DNA from: a virus
Virus record (IMG/VR): IMGVR_UViG_3300025405_000033
Coordinates: 1 to 22,778 of that record
DNA length: 22,778 nt
Strand: one strand, 5' to 3'
Position 1 is the stretch's first letter, and every line of letters starts with the position of its first letter. Positions 8,990 to 22,778 of this stretch are shown piece after piece. The notes under the pieces were generated by a model. The model ran no database searches. It saw only the letters and a list, made by a program, of their open reading frames with translations, and had not been told where the DNA came from. A program made the translations under genes and the position numbers.

Positions 8990-9330
8990 TAAGAAAGCCC
9001 TAACACCGCCGCTATTTGTTGGTGAATCAGCAAATGCTCAGAGAGCCAATCGTAAAAAGAACCCTCGTTGTTGAAGTTCACATCCAACATATTAAACGGA
9101 TTGCTGAGACCAGTCAGCCCCGCGAACGATTGATGTTCTACCTGATGAGCCTGTAGCCAGTCATCAAGATTATCAGTATCCGCATCCATGAGCGGATATA
9201 CAGGCACGGAAATGCCCTGAAGGAAAAACGTATCCCTGAACAGGTTGTGCTGAAGCCCGTTCTCGAACAGAAAGCTCTTTAAGCTATCCGTATTGCCAAA
9301 CTCCACCGCGCTGAGTTGATCGAAATCCAT
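8989..9330 (-). CDS. Small protein with three internal 'WL..H...HQ' repeats
   Basis: A 113-residue acidic protein with three related segments of about 22 residues: 17-40 ('LKSFLFENGLQHNLF...'), 55-76 ('LDDWLQAHQVEHQSFAGLTG') and 92-113 ('FYDWLSEHLLIHQQIAAVLG'). Each has an aromatic-Leu pair, a His or Asn, a second His four residues later, then a hydrophobic Gly-Leu/Ile end. Short 'HALIHQ'-type proteins occur in many phage genomes, but I know no function. The spaced histidines could bind metal or pack as helical hairpins; both are guesses. It lies between a single-span membrane protein and the 168-residue gene and starts six bases after the previous stop. Confidence 0.65.
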   Translation of the reverse strand: MDFDQLSAVEFGNTDSLKSFLFENGLQHNLFRDTFFLQGISVPVYPLMDADTDNLDDWLQAHQVEHQSFAGLTGLSNPFNMLDVNFNNEGSFYDWLSEHLLIHQQIAAVLGLS

Positions 9331-9336
9331 TTGTTC

Positions 9337-9567
9337 TCATTTGTCCGCTTTGCGGTCTAGCTTGTCGAATATCTGCTTTAGAATATCCTTCACATCAAGA
9401 ATATCCTGACGATACTCGTTTTTGGTCACATACTTGGTATGGAGATCCTTCTCCAAGTCCTTCAAGTCTTTTTCCAGACTGCGAATTGCGTCCCATACAA
9501 CCTTCAGCAGCCACCCGAGGACAGCCCCAAAAGAAGCTGCCATTATGTTGATTAGGTTTTGATCCAT
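9337..9567 (-). CDS. Small membrane-anchored coiled-coil protein
   Basis: A 76-residue protein with one N-terminal hydrophobic segment (about residues 7-25, 'NIMAASFGAVLGWLLKVVW') and then a charged helix with heptad-like spacing ('IRSLEKDLKDLEKDL', 'ILDVKDILKQIFDKLDRK'). It probably sits in the inner membrane with a cytoplasmic or periplasmic coiled coil. Small phage proteins of this build are common near lysis and tail genes; spanin-like or holin-helper roles are possible but not shown. No strong Shine-Dalgarno site precedes the ATG, and the gene starts 32 bp after the previous stop. Confidence 0.65.
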   Translation of the reverse strand: MDQNLINIMAASFGAVLGWLLKVVWDAIRSLEKDLKDLEKDLHTKYVTKNEYRQDILDVKDILKQIFDKLDRKADK

Positions 9568-9599
9568 TTGCGCTTTTGCCCAAACTTTATATTTTCGAG

Positions 9600-9770
9600 T
9601 TATTGTGCGATTTCCGCCTCCTTGCTTTCAATTTGGAGATTGAATTGGTTAACCAATGACTCAATTATTGGCTGAGCAATCCGAAACGGAAGCTCAATTA
9701 GAGCGCGTTCTACAATCTGCCATTGCTCTGCTGTAAGAGTGACAGTCATCATTGTTCCTGGCTTTATCAT
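9600..9770 (-). CDS. Small helical phage protein (56 residues)
   Basis: A short frame that starts at ATG 9770, overlapping the stop of the fibre gene (ATGA at 9770-9767). The product contains 'MTVTLTAEQWQIVERALIEL' followed by 'PFRIAQPIIESLVNQF' and a charged tail. It is a single helical unit like other short phage proteins beginning 'TLTAEQWQ'. Two in-frame ATGs at codons 7 and 8 follow an AGGA, so the true start may be at 9752 or 9749, giving 50 or 49 residues. The function is unknown. Confidence 0.6.
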   Translation of the reverse strand: MIKPGTMMTVTLTAEQWQIVERALIELPFRIAQPIIESLVNQFNLQIESKEAEIAQ

Positions 9771-11221
9771 GAACTGCTATCCGTTATAAGGCCCAGGCCA
9801 GAAAGGGCCGTGAGCAGTGAAGCGAGTGCGGCGTTGGCCCCGCGTGATCCGGTTACGGTTGGTTTGGCTGCCGATGCGTGGCCGTAAAACCCGACATTAC
9901 CGCCAATTGTGAATGCGCCAGTAACCGAAACTGCGCCGGTTCCTGCGGTTGCAGTGATGATCGGCGAGGAGCCATTTGCTAGGAACCATGTAGTGCCGTC
10001 GAATGCGCTCCAAACTGAGCCATCGCCGGAATAGGCAAGGCGCTGCCCGGCTTCTATGACGATTGCGCCCAGAAGGGAACCTCCTGCCGATGCGTATGTG
10101 CCAGATGGGACTGCGAGGGAAAGATCAATTGCGGCGACGGTATAAGTGTCTCTAACCTCAATTCCGCGCTTCATCGTGGAGGTTGTGTCGGTTGAACCAT
10201 CCGCCGCGCTACGCCTGATACGCAGCATTGTTCCCACGCCAAAAGTTGTATTGGTGGAACTATATTTTCCAAAAATTAAATCAAGGCCGGTTCGGATTCC
10301 CTCCGCATTGAAATCATCTGCACCACCCCCATAAACATCAAGCTCAAGACCAACCAAAGATCCCGCAATGCTACTTGGTTGATTGGTTTGATCAGCAGCG
10401 GCTATGCCTGCTGCAAACAAAGGAGACATGATGCCGGAACCACCGCTAGGTATTGCCGTGCGATTTGCGGCTCCATGCAGCGCAACATGCTGGCCTGACC
10501 CAGTGGCGGTAGAATTAAGCGTAAAGTTTGTGCACCACCCGTAAGAATTAGGAGACCCGCTAACCGTCAAGTTTCCAACAATGTTTGAGTTAACAACAGC
10601 GGACCCTCCGCTATGCGTCATATTATAGTCAAAACGAGTTACAGCGTAGTCAGTTGCTTCTGACACGCTTTTTTTGAACATCTTGGAACCTTGCCAAAAT
10701 GTCTCTGTGACTCCCGGAAGATTGTAATCCGCGATGGGCAATGACCCATCACCATTTGTTGCGCCGTTTGAACTCCAAAGAACTTGTTTTGACCCACTGA
10801 CTGAAAGAGAAAAATAATATTTGCCAAATGGGATATCAATAACGCTTCCAGCCGTCGCTGCAGTATAGGCCGCATTAAACGCGGCATAATTGTCTGCCAC
10901 CCCGTTCCCAACGGCACCAAAGTCTTTGACATTTTCCACATCGCCAAAGCGATCCCCCAACGTTCTAGCCGTGGTGCTCCCTGTGGCTGTGATCGGTGTG
11001 AGCGATGCGTTCGAGACTCCGGTGCCGCCGTTGGCTGCGGTCAGGGGGGTGGAAAGGGTCAGCGCACCCGTTATGACGGGCGTTGAAAGCGTGACTGAAC
11101 CATTTCCGATGCCGTTCACGGCATTAAAAATAGTCGTAAAATCCGTATCCAAGTAGGTCAACTGGTTCTGAGTAGTCGTGTTGCCAAAGGTATATGGAAC
11201 AGTCAGCGGGAGTGTAGTCAT
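9767..11221 (-). CDS. Tail fibre / tailspike protein
   Basis: A 484-residue protein. The N-terminus ('PLTVPYTFGNTTTQNQLTYL', then 'FTTIFNAVNGIGNG') is of the type that attaches phage fibres. An 'LTAANGGTGVSNASL' motif, frequent in fibres, follows. Residues about 95-140 ('VKDFGAVGNGVADNYAAFN', then 'AGSVIDIPFGKYYFS') match the opening of pectate-lyase-like beta-helix spikes. The middle is beta-rich. The last 60 residues hold 'GFYGHASAAKPTVTGSRGAN' and 'ALASLLTALSGLGLITD', an end segment shared by many phage fibres. It probably binds the host surface and may cleave polysaccharide, but I cannot pick out catalytic acids and the helix domain would be short. Its start overlaps the nozzle stop (TAATG). 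Confidence 0.85.
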   Translation of the reverse strand: MTTLPLTVPYTFGNTTTQNQLTYLDTDFTTIFNAVNGIGNGSVTLSTPVITGALTLSTPLTAANGGTGVSNASLTPITATGSTTARTLGDRFGDVENVKDFGAVGNGVADNYAAFNAAYTAATAGSVIDIPFGKYYFSLSVSGSKQVLWSSNGATNGDGSLPIADYNLPGVTETFWQGSKMFKKSVSEATDYAVTRFDYNMTHSGGSAVVNSNIVGNLTVSGSPNSYGWCTNFTLNSTATGSGQHVALHGAANRTAIPSGGSGIMSPLFAAGIAAADQTNQPSSIAGSLVGLELDVYGGGADDFNAEGIRTGLDLIFGKYSSTNTTFGVGTMLRIRRSAADGSTDTTSTMKRGIEVRDTYTVAAIDLSLAVPSGTYASAGGSLLGAIVIEAGQRLAYSGDGSVWSAFDGTTWFLANGSSPIITATAGTGAVSVTGAFTIGGNVGFYGHASAAKPTVTGSRGANAALASLLTALSGLGLITDSSS

Positions 11222-13188
11222 TAGAACCTCGCCCTCAATTCATGCTCTGTCTCAAGCGTGTTTATCACAAACCCGCCGTAAGTAGAGGTTATGGTTAACC
11301 CGATATATTTGCCCCACTGTTGGGCATCGCTTTTGTAGAGGTAATAACCGTTGGTAAAGTCCCATGGGATAATGGATGAGACGTTGTTGACCCACGGTAT
11401 AAAAGCGCCAGATGAATTAAACCAAGGCACTTGGTTCGTTAGCGTGTAAATCGGGCTTGAGTTAACTTGACTGTCAACGGTGACGTTTAACACGCCGCTA
11501 TTGGTCAAAGTGGCTTCAATGCCAAATTTCAGGGCTTGTTTGTCTCGGATAATATCGCCCATAGTCCATAGCGCGCTTTGCACGTTGGACGATATAGAGG
11601 CTGTGCTGCTTTGGTATAGCTTAACCAGTGATGTACCATCAGTGCCGTAGATCGAAGGCACCCCACCAACCGGAACGCCGTTAATATATTTGATAGTGCC
11701 TTGGCTAGTCAGGAACCATTTTTTGTCAAAAAACACTGCTTGAAGCGGGCGCGTTCCTTGCGCAGGATCTTGGTAGTAAAAATTAAACGCAGCGCAAAGA
11801 ATGCCGTTCAGCAGCACCTGACCGCCACTTACAGGCTGCGAAAAATCAATGAGCGGAAATATGCCATCCAAAGCGTCAGACAACTTCGTTGTCGTAGAAC
11901 CCACCAACGCATAAACGCCGTAGTCATTCATAAACAAAACGCTGCGGAAATATGGGAACAAACTGTAGACGCGTTTAGTGCCAACAGACGCACTGACGTT
12001 GGTGTTGGTGAAGATCGTTGTGCCGTTGCTCTGAACGCGAACGTCAGAAAACACGTTGATGCTGTCGTCACCAAAAATGTAGAGGAAGTTGTTGGCCGAA
12101 AGTAGGCCCTGAATGTTGCCGTGCAGCGTCTCATCGGTCAGCGTCACAGCGCCCGCAGAAACGGTCACAAAGTCGCTGTAAGAGCCTGCGGCGGAGTAAT
12201 ACACCGTGCGCCCTTGAGCCACCCACACGCGCCCCGAGAACGTCGCCACGTCTATGTTTGGGCTAGTGCTGGCAACCGCCGTAGCAATGGCTCCTGAACC
12301 CGTAGAATCGGTAATAGAGACAGACGGGTTGGACGTGTAACCGTTGCCCAAGTTAGTCATCACAATCTGCGTGATAACATTGGCGACAACAACCGCTTTG
12401 GCAGCCGCATTTGCGCCACCACCACCGGAAATAGTGACCGTGGGAGTGGCGCTATAACCTGTGCCACCGCTTTGAAGGTTTACAACAACAGTGCCGGTCG
12501 CAAAGCTAATGTAACTAGCAACCGCAGTTGCGCTTGATCCACCACCACCGCTCAAAGTCACTGTTACCGGCCCTGTGTAGCCAGAACCGGCGTTAGTCAA
12601 AGTGATGGAAGATACCGCAGTGCCGGTAAGCGATACCTGGGCCGTAGCTTGAACGCCGTTTGCGTCATTCGGCGCGCTAATAGATACAGACGGTGCGCTA
12701 GTATAGCCGGTTCCAGGGTTGGTAATTGCGATCGTGCCAACGGAGCCAATGGCGACTACGTTATTACCATTCCAACTATACAACCCGTTTGCCGGGTCAA
12801 GAATCAACAAACGCTCATTTTTCCATTGAGCCGAGCGCAATCCCGATCCACTAAACTTACCCGCAGATGCAATAGTGCCTTTAGTCGCCGTTTGGATATT
12901 AAAATTCTCAGCTGCGCCGTTGCTCTGGAATGAAAGCAAGTAGTCAGACAAATTGATATTAGACGACGTAAAATAAGTTGTCGCCGTGGTCCAGGTAACT
13001 ACATTGCCGCCGCTGTTTGTGACTGAGATCTGAGCCGGGACAATCTTAAGATTGCCTGAACCAATAGGCATCGCATTCTCAAGCCACGAAAATTCGTTCT
13101 CAGGAATTGCCGTGCGATTGGCGTGAGTATTGATACCCCTAAAGTCTTTTATGACCAGATACTGTTTGCGCTGCTCTGCCGACGCCAT
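11221..13188 (-). CDS. Tail nozzle / DNA-stabilisation protein (gp10-like) with inserted repeats
   Basis: A 655-residue protein. The start ('LVIKDFRGINTHANRTAIPE', 'FSWLENAMPIGSGNLKIVP') is typical of the large tail tube or DNA-stabilising proteins of short-tailed phages (T7 gp12-like and P22 gp10-like), which form the nozzle below the adaptor ring. Core beta-propeller-like segments continue at 'ERLLILDPANGLYSWNGNN' and 'FSGRVWVAQGRTVYYS'. Between them lie four repeats of about 40 residues (152-307), each with a G-x-GY motif and a small-residue loop. These occur in many phage virion proteins and are probably surface insertions. The gene lies right after the adaptor, as expected. Only a weak ribosome-binding site is seen. 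Confidence 0.85.
   Translation of the reverse strand: MASAEQRKQYLVIKDFRGINTHANRTAIPENEFSWLENAMPIGSGNLKIVPAQISVTNSGGNVVTWTTATTYFTSSNINLSDYLLSFQSNGAAENFNIQTATKGTIASAGKFSGSGLRSAQWKNERLLILDPANGLYSWNGNNVVAIGSVGTIAITNPGTGYTSAPSVSISAPNDANGVQATAQVSLTGTAVSSITLTNAGSGYTGPVTVTLSGGGGSSATAVASYISFATGTVVVNLQSGGTGYSATPTVTISGGGGANAAAKAVVVANVITQIVMTNLGNGYTSNPSVSITDSTGSGAIATAVASTSPNIDVATFSGRVWVAQGRTVYYSAAGSYSDFVTVSAGAVTLTDETLHGNIQGLLSANNFLYIFGDDSINVFSDVRVQSNGTTIFTNTNVSASVGTKRVYSLFPYFRSVLFMNDYGVYALVGSTTTKLSDALDGIFPLIDFSQPVSGGQVLLNGILCAAFNFYYQDPAQGTRPLQAVFFDKKWFLTSQGTIKYINGVPVGGVPSIYGTDGTSLVKLYQSSTASISSNVQSALWTMGDIIRDKQALKFGIEATLTNSGVLNVTVDSQVNSSPIYTLTNQVPWFNSSGAFIPWVNNVSSIIPWDFTNGYYLYKSDAQQWGKYIGLTITSTYGGFVINTLETEHELRARF
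12268..12735 (-). repeat. Four ~40-residue G-x-GY repeats inserted in the nozzle protein
   Basis: The coding stretch holds four related units with G-x-GY at residues 159-162 (GTGY), 201-204 (GSGY), 242-245 (GTGY) and 281-284 (GNGY), spaced 39-42 residues. Each has a following P-x-V-x-(I/L) strand or its equivalent, and two have a GGGG loop. They resemble each other in protein more than in DNA, so they are old duplications. Confidence 0.85.
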
Positions 13189-19845: not shown

Positions 19846-20247
19846 TCAGTCCCCTTTATTGCCTTCAAGCTGTTGATTGAAACTTGGTCGCGAATAGTCC
19901 GCACGGTTGCGAATACCCACATCCATCTTTATTTGCCCGTCAACCACCTGAAGCCCCAGGTGGCGGTACATGCGTGGTTTAGGCGAACGCCGATACTCGG
20001 TGAACCGGGTGTTATACATGCCTTGCATCACGGCAATTTCGCCATTTTCCCACTGTTGCAAGGCCCTGCTAACCCGAATCTGCGTTATCTCTGAGACCGG
20101 GTTGATTTTTTGGATAAAGCATTTCTTGAACAGATCCTCGGTAATGCCCGCCACGTTGGCAAACAACGCCGCCGAGATCCCCCGTTTCTTATCCGCGAGA
20201 AACCTGTCAATACGCTCCATCAAGACTTTTTTGGGCAGGACGCTCAT
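19846..20247 (-). CDS. Helix-turn-helix-like protein between terminase and portal
   Basis: A 133-residue protein whose ATG overlaps the terminase stop (TGATG at 20247). Residues about 20-70 ('GISAALFANVAGITEDLFKK', 'SEITQIRVSRALQQWENGEI') read like a Cro/XRE-type helix-turn-helix. A basic 'FTEYRRSPKPRMYRH' follows and then a short C-terminal tail. Similar small proteins occur next to large terminase genes in environmental podovirus genomes. It could recognise the packaging site or regulate late genes. Translational coupling to the terminase suggests a linked amount of both proteins. Confidence 0.65.
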   Translation of the reverse strand: MSVLPKKVLMERIDRFLADKKRGISAALFANVAGITEDLFKKCFIQKINPVSEITQIRVSRALQQWENGEIAVMQGMYNTRFTEYRRSPKPRMYRHLGLQVVDGQIKMDVGIRNRADYSRPSFNQQLEGNKGD

Positions 20248-22007
20248 CAGGAACCATACATGCCAATGTTTTTGAGGTAGTCCGATACGTTGCGGCCCAC
20301 GCTGAGTTGTTCAGGAGTCCTGTTCTCCTGAGACTTGTTGACCGCACGGCTTAGTTTCATTGCCACCAATCGTGGTTGCACCTGTTCAGCATAAGCAGCT
20401 GCCGCCAACGCAGCGCCAATCACGCGATCATCTTTTCCGCGTCCGCCAGCCTCAATCGAAGCGCCGTCACGGCGAATGGTCTTCATTTCTTCGATCAGAT
20501 CCTGACTGCATACGCGCATCATGCCTCGTTCAAAATAGTCCTTCAGGTAACTCATCATCCGCTCTTTGGACGATACCGTTGTTACCCATCCCATAGCATT
20601 GCTTGGACCGCTCAACGTGTCGTTCTTCCGCCAGATGTAGTTGGACATATGCCCCAGCACATCCATCAGATCTTTACCGTGCTGCCCGCCTATGCTGACC
20701 GCCTGACGCCGCAAGTTGCGCAACTCATTGATGACGGCTTGTCCAGGTCCGTTCACTTCCAGGTTAAGCGTTGAATTGCGATACGCGCCAGCAAGATGAC
20801 TAATCACCCAGGCAAATTGATAAGTGTTCATTTCACTGGTTGCAAACTCGGCAACCTGTTCCATGCCGTCCGAGTAGCAACGCCAGACGCTAATGCAGAA
20901 CCTATCTGCCCAATCGCTAGATCCATACGCCGGGTCAGCGCCAATGACGTAGTAAGCCGTGTCAATCGGCTGTTCCCAAATCCTAAGCGTTGCCAGCTTG
21001 TCAGACGAACGCACAACCTCAGTGTCGGCAAAGTGCGCGCCCATCACATAGCGATACACCTCCGGCACCATCTTCTTCGCGTCTTTCATCGCATCCGTGC
21101 AGCGAGCGTTCGAGAAGAACGAACTGCCGGTCATAATGAAAGCGTAGTCCTCAGTGGGCGGAAACTCCTGATACATCAAAGCATCATCACGAATGCCTTC
21201 AGACAGTTTCCAACGCCACCAAGCCATCTGACGTGAATTGATCTCTACGCCATAAAGCTTCTTGATATCCCGGACCCATTCTTTCTCCTCGCCGGTCAAT
21301 CGACCATCCCAATAGACTTTGTAAACCTGAGATTCCGCATCGACAGAGTAGAACTCGTTCCGCCACCAACCGCAGAAAATAGCCTTCTGCGTTTTGGCTC
21401 TTTTGGCCGTGATATACATGTCATGAAACATGTTGAAGCCGCGAGCCGTGCTCTCAAACATATACAACCTGTCGGGGTTGGTTTCCGCCAACGAAGCCAA
21501 CAAGGACGCCAAACCCTCCTCATCACCCCATGAACTTGTCTCCGTGCCGTGAAGGTAGGTAATAGCTTTGCCGCGCCCCAGAGTGCCTTTCGCTCGCAAC
21601 CCGGCCACCTGATAAAACAACCGGCTTCGGTTCTTCAGCACCATCTGATTCCGGTTGTGGCTATCAACCGGCATCTTCCATTCACGCGGCAAATGCTCGT
21701 GATACATGCCAAGAGTGCTGCGGAACATCTCACGGTTTTCCTCCGTGTCAGTCACCAACGTCGCACCCAAACCCGGATGTGTGAACACCCAATACAAGTC
21801 CAACGCCAGACTGATTGTCGTAATGCCTTGCTGACGCCCTTTCAGAATCACATAATGATGGATATCGTTCTCAAGACCCTTCTGAATCTCCTCCATCACA
21901 TAGGTCTGAGTGCCAAGCAGGGTGCCAAGTTTCTTCAGACCCTGTTCCTTGGTCTCAATCTGAAGCTCCGAACAAAACTTGTAGAACTTCTTAAGATCGA
22001 ACTTCAT
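20247..22007 (-). CDS. Terminase large subunit
   Basis: A 586-residue packaging motor. The ATPase domain has the Walker A-like loop GRQQGITT (residues 57-64), a likely Walker B strand 'AITYLHGTETSSWGDEEG' (about 148-165), and an 'ESTARGFN' coupling motif (185-192). The nuclease domain shows 'VIGADPAYGSSD' (Asp358), 'LNLEVNGPG' (Glu417) and 'GRGKDDRVIGAAL' (Asp526/527), the acidic set of the RNase H-like fold. It cuts and pumps DNA into the head through the portal. A GGAGAG site lies seven bases before ATG 22007. It follows the putative DNA-binding partner gene by 24 bp. Confidence 0.95.
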   Translation of the reverse strand: MKFDLKKFYKFCSELQIETKEQGLKKLGTLLGTQTYVMEEIQKGLENDIHHYVILKGRQQGITTISLALDLYWVFTHPGLGATLVTDTEENREMFRSTLGMYHEHLPREWKMPVDSHNRNQMVLKNRSRLFYQVAGLRAKGTLGRGKAITYLHGTETSSWGDEEGLASLLASLAETNPDRLYMFESTARGFNMFHDMYITAKRAKTQKAIFCGWWRNEFYSVDAESQVYKVYWDGRLTGEEKEWVRDIKKLYGVEINSRQMAWWRWKLSEGIRDDALMYQEFPPTEDYAFIMTGSSFFSNARCTDAMKDAKKMVPEVYRYVMGAHFADTEVVRSSDKLATLRIWEQPIDTAYYVIGADPAYGSSDWADRFCISVWRCYSDGMEQVAEFATSEMNTYQFAWVISHLAGAYRNSTLNLEVNGPGQAVINELRNLRRQAVSIGGQHGKDLMDVLGHMSNYIWRKNDTLSGPSNAMGWVTTVSSKERMMSYLKDYFERGMMRVCSQDLIEEMKTIRRDGASIEAGGRGKDDRVIGAALAAAAYAEQVQPRLVAMKLSRAVNKSQENRTPEQLSVGRNVSDYLKNIGMYGS

Positions 22008-22031: not shown

Positions 22032-22448
22032 CTACTCAGCATCAACCTTTGCCGCAGGCTCATCCTCGCCAACGTAGTAATACCTTTGCTTCGAGGCGAT
22101 GATTGCATGTCCCTGCTTCCTATTCTTCTGCGCACACAAACTCATGATTGACCGCCAGGACACAGGCAAATAACCGTGCGGCCAAAGCAATTCCTTCAGA
22201 TCATCATACGAAACACCCTCCTTCCCAGAGAGCATACACGCATCCAAAAACCGAATAGGCTGTTCAGCCGGACGCACTCGACGAACATGCGCACGATGGT
22301 CCCCAGTCTCACGAGCATACTTCAAGTAAGACAAAATTGTGGTCAGGCTAACGCCCTCCCCATCAGCAATGTCCCGCAACCGAACATTAACCGCCCAACG
22401 GTCAAGTATCCGGTTCAAACGCTTCAATGATTCTTCACGCATCGCCAT
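22032..22448 (-). CDS. Two-domain DNA-binding protein, candidate small terminase or regulator
   Basis: A 138-residue protein, started at ATG 22448 because AGGAGG lies nine bases upstream; the frame stays open to 22691 but that part is GC-rich repeat DNA. Residues about 22-49 ('VRLRDIADGEGVSLTTILSY') form a helix-turn-helix. Residues about 70-127 ('YDDLKELLWPHGYLPVSWRS', 'NRKQGHAIIASKQRYYYVG') look like a winged helix of the PhoB/OmpR type, ending in a Tyr-rich wing. The tail is acidic. Position before the large terminase makes it the best candidate for the small terminase, which binds the packaging site; an autoregulator of late genes is the main alternative. The TCGAG array just upstream is its possible target. 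Confidence 0.65.
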   Translation of the reverse strand: MAMREESLKRLNRILDRWAVNVRLRDIADGEGVSLTTILSYLKYARETGDHRAHVRRVRPAEQPIRFLDACMLSGKEGVSYDDLKELLWPHGYLPVSWRSIMSLCAQKNRKQGHAIIASKQRYYYVGEDEPAAKVDAE

Positions 22449-22471
22449 ACAACAAATCCTCCTCATAAAGT

Positions 22472-22502: not shown

Positions 22503-22601
22503 CGCAAACATGGTTTTTTCTTGGGGGGAGTTGCGAAAGGGGCACCCGCATGAGGGGGCCCAGGGCCCATGCCGTGGCCATCCCGTTTGCCTGCCGAGCG
22601 G

Positions 22602-22761
22602 ATGCTCGAGGAAGGCGTCCAATGCTCGAGCAGGCTGCGCGTGAAGCGTGAGCATGTCTATGCTCGAGACTGGTCGAGATTGCTGGCCCAAATAGCGTTC
22701 CGGGGGGAGGTCGAGCGGTAGCTCGAGCGGTGCTCGAGGGGCGGTCGAGCGGTAGCTCGAG
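22602..22761. repeat. Cluster of nine TCGAG sites with three 6-4-6 dyads
   Basis: TCGAG starts at 22606, 22626, 22664, 22674, 22711, 22723, 22734, 22745 and 22757. Six are CTCGAG and three GTCGAG; ATGCTCGAG occurs three times. The last five are 11-12 bp apart, near one helix turn. A 19-bp unit is repeated exactly at 22709-22727 and 22743-22761. Dyads of 6-4-6 bp lie at 22650-22665, 22711-22726 and 22745-22760. This looks like a multi-site protein-binding region. Confidence 0.85.
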
Positions 22762-22778
22762 GGGCGGTCAGAGTAGGA

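Follow-up and report, generated by a model that had tools for sequence, protein, structure and literature searches.

Three kinds of described system come close to the locus analysed here. M. tuberculosis PhoP binds 7-bp motifs with a required 4-bp spacer, which also occur three or four in a row; its binding falls with any other spacer (PMC4832192, in part). Rows of three and four repeats are bound more tightly by PhoP (parts of PMC4832192 and PMC10936776), and the repeats of SARP regulators lie 11 or 22 bp apart (PMC10936776, in part). The array reported here resembles these PhoB/OmpR and SARP (AfsR) boxes in its direct repeats, in its pitch of about 11 bp and, if the adjacent protein is its binder, in the head-to-tail binding of OmpR-type winged helices (parts of PMC10936776 and PMC4832192). 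Those boxes regulate transcription, whereas the gene concerned here lies in the terminase operon and the spacers are 4 or 5 bp; moreover, the candidate binder carries an N-terminal helix-turn-helix (HTH) and is modelled without a receiver domain.

In lambda cos, a winged-HTH domain of the small terminase binds repeats beside the nicking site, and the static bend of the I2 A/T-tract by that site resembles an A-tract at the present locus (PMC4856287, in part). The three R sites of lambda belong to cosB and lie past I2 on a single flank of cosN, whereas there are nine repeats here, placed across the candidate core from the A-tract and the terminase genes. The SPP1 pac region (pacL-pacC-pacR) offers a binding region of about 100 bp adjoining the cleavage site (PMC7617512, in part). 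No sequence identity exists between its TerS sites at pacL and pacR, which are believed to be recognised by their structure (PMC4856287, in part), whereas the array here consists of near-identical heptamers. The literature searched names neither this array nor the conserved block beside it, and we make no claim that either is unpublished.

The repeat array

The window, i.e. the whole stretch of DNA analysed, is a 22,778-bp virus contig, all of which recurs without a single difference inside a longer contig of 36,080 bp. Its features are collected in Table 1. An earlier note on this DNA had described nine TCGAG sites within about 160 bp, the last five of them 12, 11, 11 and 12 bp apart; both statements hold on the + strand, where the sites span 22606-22761 and the distances are those between site starts. 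The palindrome need not be the unit, because all nine copies are direct repeats of the heptamer CTCGA(G/C)C, in the same orientation along the strand that encodes the terminases. Six of the nine are CTCGAGC and thus lie inside CTCGAG palindromes, and CTCGAGCAT is the reading of three of the four copies nearest the conserved block.

Table 1. Features of the terminase-proximal region of the window
Feature	Position	Strand	Basis
Large terminase	20247..22007	-	PHROG 2, Pfam Terminase_6C
HTH plus OmpR/SARP-type winged-helix protein, 138 aa; candidate array binder and candidate small terminase	22032..22448	-	
AGGAGG, Shine-Dalgarno-like sequence of the HTH-wHTH gene	22458..22463	-	
A-tract after C run, candidate static bend	22513..22522	-	
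Block core GTGCCCC-N9-TCCCCCCA, candidate packaging-start (cos/pac) core	22522..22545	-	
TGGGCCCTGGG, upstream G box of conserved block, 24 bp before GTGCCCC	22559..22569	-	
Nine direct repeats CTCGA(G/C)C forming the array	22604..22761	-	sequence scan, simulations
Two tandem 34-bp copies, 85% identical, holding the five regular heptamers	22701..22768 (22701-22734 / 22735-22768)	.	
Five heptamers at 12/11/11/12-bp pitch, spacers 5, 4, 4, 5 bp	22709..22761	-	

The array is beyond chance, real and unusual: nine site centres fall within 160 bp, against a maximum of 4 both in 60 first-order Markov genomes and in 3000 local simulations of 600 bp. All six CTCGAG of the window belong to it, in agreement with the note. 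The 36,080-bp contig holds it nine times, seven times in the array, the seventh lying 44 bp past the last copy of the window, and twice elsewhere, versus about 4 expected outside the array from a Markov estimate.

The proposal that the sites face one side of the helix holds roughly for the five regular copies (Rayleigh R 0.73 at 10.5 bp, 0.99 at 11.5 bp), and only approximately, because a pitch of 11.5 bp drifts against the helix. It does not extend to all nine copies (R 0.34 at 10.5 bp), for which strict phasing was rejected (P = 0.34). Helical phasing is therefore weak overall, and the 34-bp tandem duplication underlies the 11.5-bp pitch of the five. The other four copies lie outside this duplication and have unlike spacings.

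The window edge is a contig edge only, since all four other same-phage contigs that reach the array continue through it. In the 36,080-bp contig the edge is followed by CTCGAG, a TATAGCTC-rich stretch and then, in the opposite direction, a 98-aa gene and an ArdC anti-restriction gene (L177:8086-9009, - strand; Pfam ArdcN, MPTase-PolyVal), the latter divergent from the terminase genes. Short repeats of the TATAGCTC type occur at about 9425-9475 of L177, in an AT-rich stretch adjoining the array, and TATATA-rich stretches are found upstream of the block at similar positions in many relatives. No stop codon interrupts the frame of the HTH-wHTH gene across the block and the array, up to the end of the contig (22032-22778, - strand, 248 aa); the array as coding sequence was rejected and the open frame taken as chance, the gene of the relative L004 starting at its own ATG.

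Two further observations concern more distant parts of these contigs. Two copies of a 764-bp stretch, 99.3% identical, lie towards either end of the 36,080-bp contig (L177:846-1609 and L178:16017-16780); the match stops at the flanks, and the pair may be an internal duplication or an assembly effect. The protein encoded at 11221-13188 (- strand) of the window matches many different virion structural PHROGs in overlapping parts of residues 140-344, which suggests a widespread domain.

A conserved block beside the terminase genes

Between the array and the terminase genes lies a block that is shared far more widely than the array. It reads, in order, TGGG, a gap of about 24 bp, GTGCCCC, nine less constrained positions, TCCCCCCA and an A-tract (22513-22569), and is followed in many relatives by a short T-tract that is weak in the window. 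The block was first recognised upstream of the terminase genes among 80 contigs found with the large terminase, and a pattern scan yielded 93 stretches. A PSSM was built from 42 non-redundant sites, all of which match the pattern, so the pattern columns are conserved by construction. Three terminase searches gave 136 distinct contigs, 6 of them too short to score, and the PSSM placed the block in 87 of the remaining 130, which had been chosen by the large terminase alone. In an earlier run without L200 (135 contigs given) it was found in 86 of 129, with scores of 21.9 to 85.1 versus at most -12.7 on the reverse-complement control.

The block was not found in 43 of the 130 scored contigs, 28 with less than 1.5 kb upstream of the terminase and 15 with at least that length, two of these 15 having at least 3.5 kb. 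Some members may lack the block or carry a diverged form.

Where present, the block holds a fixed place beside the terminase genes, 75-4146 bp before the large terminase. Its matches in the first 80 terminase loci are all in one orientation (30 to 0), a single match was obtained in 116 other virus contigs, and a near-complete genome contains one copy. The block DNA of L043 had no match in named phages, yet two public genomes, MW202753 and MW202825, contain the block by PSSM. It also occurs in two MAG-binned contigs (L179 and L180) and was not found in the examined stretches of L181, L182 and L183. One 34,108-bp contig, IMGVR_UViG_3300042465_002345 (L138 and L164), has a block at both ends, about 33.7 kb apart, followed by sequences that are similar, not identical.

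The conservation, orientation and position of the block suggest that it is probably the packaging start, a cos or pac core. Its one copy in the near-complete genome lies 75 bp from the cumulative GC-skew minimum. It separates divergent arms, with the terminase on one side and ArdC on the other; a divergent ArdC gene lies 382-891 bp away in 25 of the 60 blocks for which 2.5 kb or more of upstream DNA is present. It would be reasonable for an anti-restriction gene to adjoin the DNA end that reaches the cell first. Contigs that end at the block from the ArdC side were sought too, but all six carrying one upstream marker continue into the block; the ArdC search returned 9 loci.

The starts of the contigs provide a softer argument. 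Contig starts within -55..+17 of GTGCCCC number 13 of 62, 12 of them by score and one by eye (L014, which starts inside the C run and scores below the threshold), against a background that averages 2.75 per 80 bp in the adjoining 640 bp upstream. The counts per 80-bp bin are 13 at the block, then 2, 7, 5, 4 and 1. The argument is soft because starts are also frequent 140-380 bp upstream (16 further contigs), the bin at the block was picked after the data had been seen, and the starts may instead be assembly breaks at an odd sequence; P is no better than 0.027 if the highest local rate, 7 per 80 bp, is taken as background.

The gene preceding the large terminase

The gene order given in the earlier note, an HTH plus winged-helix protein followed by the large terminase, agrees with the model of the former and the family matches of the latter. 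The AF2 model of the 22032-22448 protein (pLDDT 79, pTM 0.45) shows an N-terminal HTH and a C-terminal winged helix, whose relative placing is unsure because of the low pTM. The C-terminal domain is modelled as an OmpR/SARP-type winged helix without a receiver domain: its best structure matches are AfsR (Z 10.5) and EmbR (10.3), and CosR (9.0), ToxR (8.7) and PhoB-DNA (7.5) match too, with winged helices of other classes scoring as high among them (PafBC, Z 9.8). Foldseek gave weak E-values for the protein (best in the PDB 0.13), the best viral match being an OmpR/PhoB-type phage protein (2.4e-3). The protein has no good family match (best Pfam E 0.048) and none to a terminase family among those of Pfam and PHROG, and two queries found no match to the HTH-wHTH protein in named phages.

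The HTH-wHTH gene ends 24 bp before the large terminase here, about 18 bp before it in L097, L108 and L132, and about 0.9 kb from it in L007 and L034. Among 79 block-to-terminase intervals, 8 contain this gene, 66 a gene for a protein of about 85 aa, none both and 5 neither; the low P of this mutual exclusion counts related phages as separate. These intervals derive from 84 of the 87 block contigs (L002, L062 and L200 were not given), from which L003, L034, L061, L075 and L202 were left out since the block lies too near the contig edge. A further HTH-wHTH group also has its gene directly before the large terminase. In a tree of 54 large terminases the HTH-wHTH class requires one change (support 75/27), by which the gene swap is a single event rather than many.

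The family of about 85 aa (e.g. in L222, L021 and L053) is all-helical in the AF2 model (pLDDT 83), unrelated to the HTH-wHTH protein and of no known function. Its position suggests a candidate small terminase, a label given by position because the model has no convincing fold match. The HTH-wHTH protein sits in the slot that this unrelated gene occupies in most relatives, and for that reason is probably the small terminase itself or a partner of it. The gene position makes the 22032-22448 protein a candidate small terminase, while a match to a terminase family is missing in Pfam and PHROG.

Binding of the array by this protein is plausible from the model, since its winged-helix class matches the layout of 7-bp direct repeats at a pitch of about 11 bp. 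The main new argument for the array as the binding array of the adjacent HTH-wHTH protein is this analogy of fold class and site layout, against which stand the spacers of 5, 4, 4 and 5 bp, versus the 4 bp required by PhoP.

The earlier note gave an operator of the adjacent gene as its alternative, in which the HTH-wHTH protein would act as a transcription factor on the array, controlling the divergent early (ArdC) and late (terminase) promoters without any role in packaging. Winged helices of the OmpR/SARP type are mostly transcription factors, the array lies between divergent genes and adjoins an AT-rich stretch, and the relative L108 weakly matches two PHROGs, a DNA binding protein with E 0.0014 and a late transcriptional activator with E 0.029. 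However, a scan for sigma-70-like promoters, the only type covered, gave none in 9200-9900 of the genome contig, where one terminator-like site was seen versus 0.4 expected. The array is also separated from the downstream gene by 156-313 bp and from the upstream one by over 200 bp, whereas OmpR-type operators are usually nearer their genes, and the HTH-wHTH gene takes the place, immediately ahead of the large terminase, of another small gene. We consider the operator somewhat unlikely, and yet a serious rival.

The array in related phages

All four same-phage contigs that reach the array contain it in full, which does not represent independent conservation, and it was seen in no other relative. 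The earlier note had expected the array in close relatives with the same two genes. In this test, set in advance, it is absent from L004, the closest different relative, of which the large terminase is 92% and the neighbouring protein 57% identical. L004 retains the block, but the stretch beside it is free of CTCGAG, its 33-kb record containing a single one. In a weak pairwise alignment a 49-column gap removes two of the five regular copies and the beginning of another; the other short repeats at the same place in L004 (CAAGC, 13, 13 and 8 bp apart) are likewise weak. The site of L004 may have changed together with the protein. As judged from these comparisons the array is lineage-specific. 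Consequently, the earlier view of the array as a packaging recognition site is retained as to place, since it flanks the probable packaging start, and given up as to conservation, the conserved part being the 22513-22569 block and not the CTCGAG array.

Repeats of a comparable layout were sought in the other phages, near-duplicate upstream regions having been collapsed in the word, phasing, autocorrelation and pentamer-chain tests. Pentamer chains (at least 3, pitch 10-12 bp) occur in 7 of 62 block-upstream regions versus 3 of 514 control segments. With the HTH-wHTH gene sought by tblastn, they occur in 5 of the 15 phages that have it versus 3 of 42 others (Fisher P 0.024, one of several tests on relatives that are not independent), and 10 of the 15 show no such chain. 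A broader repeated-word test gave no link to the gene (P = 0.14) and autocorrelation no 11-bp peak in the HTH-wHTH group, both with labels assigned by hand and partly wrong, as the HTH-wHTH loci L008, L009 and L013 were counted as lacking the gene. Elsewhere, phased CTCGAG triples occur in at least 119 stretches; among the 25 densest matches listed, the ones taken for other phages resemble Leu-Glu coding sequence or tandem repeats. The array region had two chance-level matches in named phages.

A further rival is that the array is a neutral expansion of short repeats, produced by slippage in a fast-evolving intergenic stretch and bound by nothing. The 34-bp duplication and the lineage restriction agree with such an origin, as does the general richness in repeats of block-upstream DNA: 10 of 63 such regions, versus 9 of 662 control segments, have a repeated-word score below 1e-6, mostly with different words per phage. 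Against it, the four copies outside the duplication are unevenly spaced, and still neither the CTCGA(G/C)C sequence nor its orientation changes in any of the nine. Neutral expansion is, like the operator, a serious rival, though a distinctly unlikely one. A replication origin, with an AT-rich unwinding element and iteron-like repeats bound by a Rep-like protein, is improbable: the cumulative GC-skew minimum lies 75-80 bp from the block (at 9833, or 9838 when detrended, of the genome contig) and a 40-bp step of 68% AT follows just past the array, but divergent gene orientation gives the same skew, the minimum in MW202753 is about 600 bp from the block, a separate gene matches primosomal and replication initiation families, and the array pitch is about 11 bp whereas iterons of known origins usually have a pitch of about 20-22 bp.

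A possible packaging-initiation region

We tentatively favour a packaging region in which a conserved core is accompanied by an array bound by the 22032-22448 protein in a small-terminase role, a reading that as a whole we hold to be possible at a little short of even chances. Packaging in a freshwater phage lineage with genomes of about 34-36 kb would then begin in the intergenic region upstream of the terminase genes. The core (22513-22569) would be the cos or pac core where the terminase starts packaging, and the array a lineage-specific row of candidate sites for the protein encoded downstream. As published for PhoP and, as far as the pitch goes, for the SARPs, the winged helices would dock head-to-tail on the 7-bp direct repeats; the protein would gather the terminase at the region, and the large subunit would then act on the block. 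What the sequences and models show of this proposal is an array of uniform orientation confined to one lineage, a conserved block beside it, the predicted fold of the protein and the swap of its gene. On the other side, the block is explained without the HTH-wHTH protein, because it is common to phages with either small protein.

An extension that we regard as unlikely is that the packaging core was kept while the small-terminase slot was swapped once, the HTH-wHTH protein bringing with it fast-changing arrays that resemble PhoB boxes, so that recognition and cutting evolved separately. If true, one small protein, a short array and a conserved core would make an experimentally simple system in which DNA recognition and cutting by the terminase can be separated, and the sequence signature would mark where packaging probably starts in freshwater phages that are uncultured and documented by metagenomes alone.
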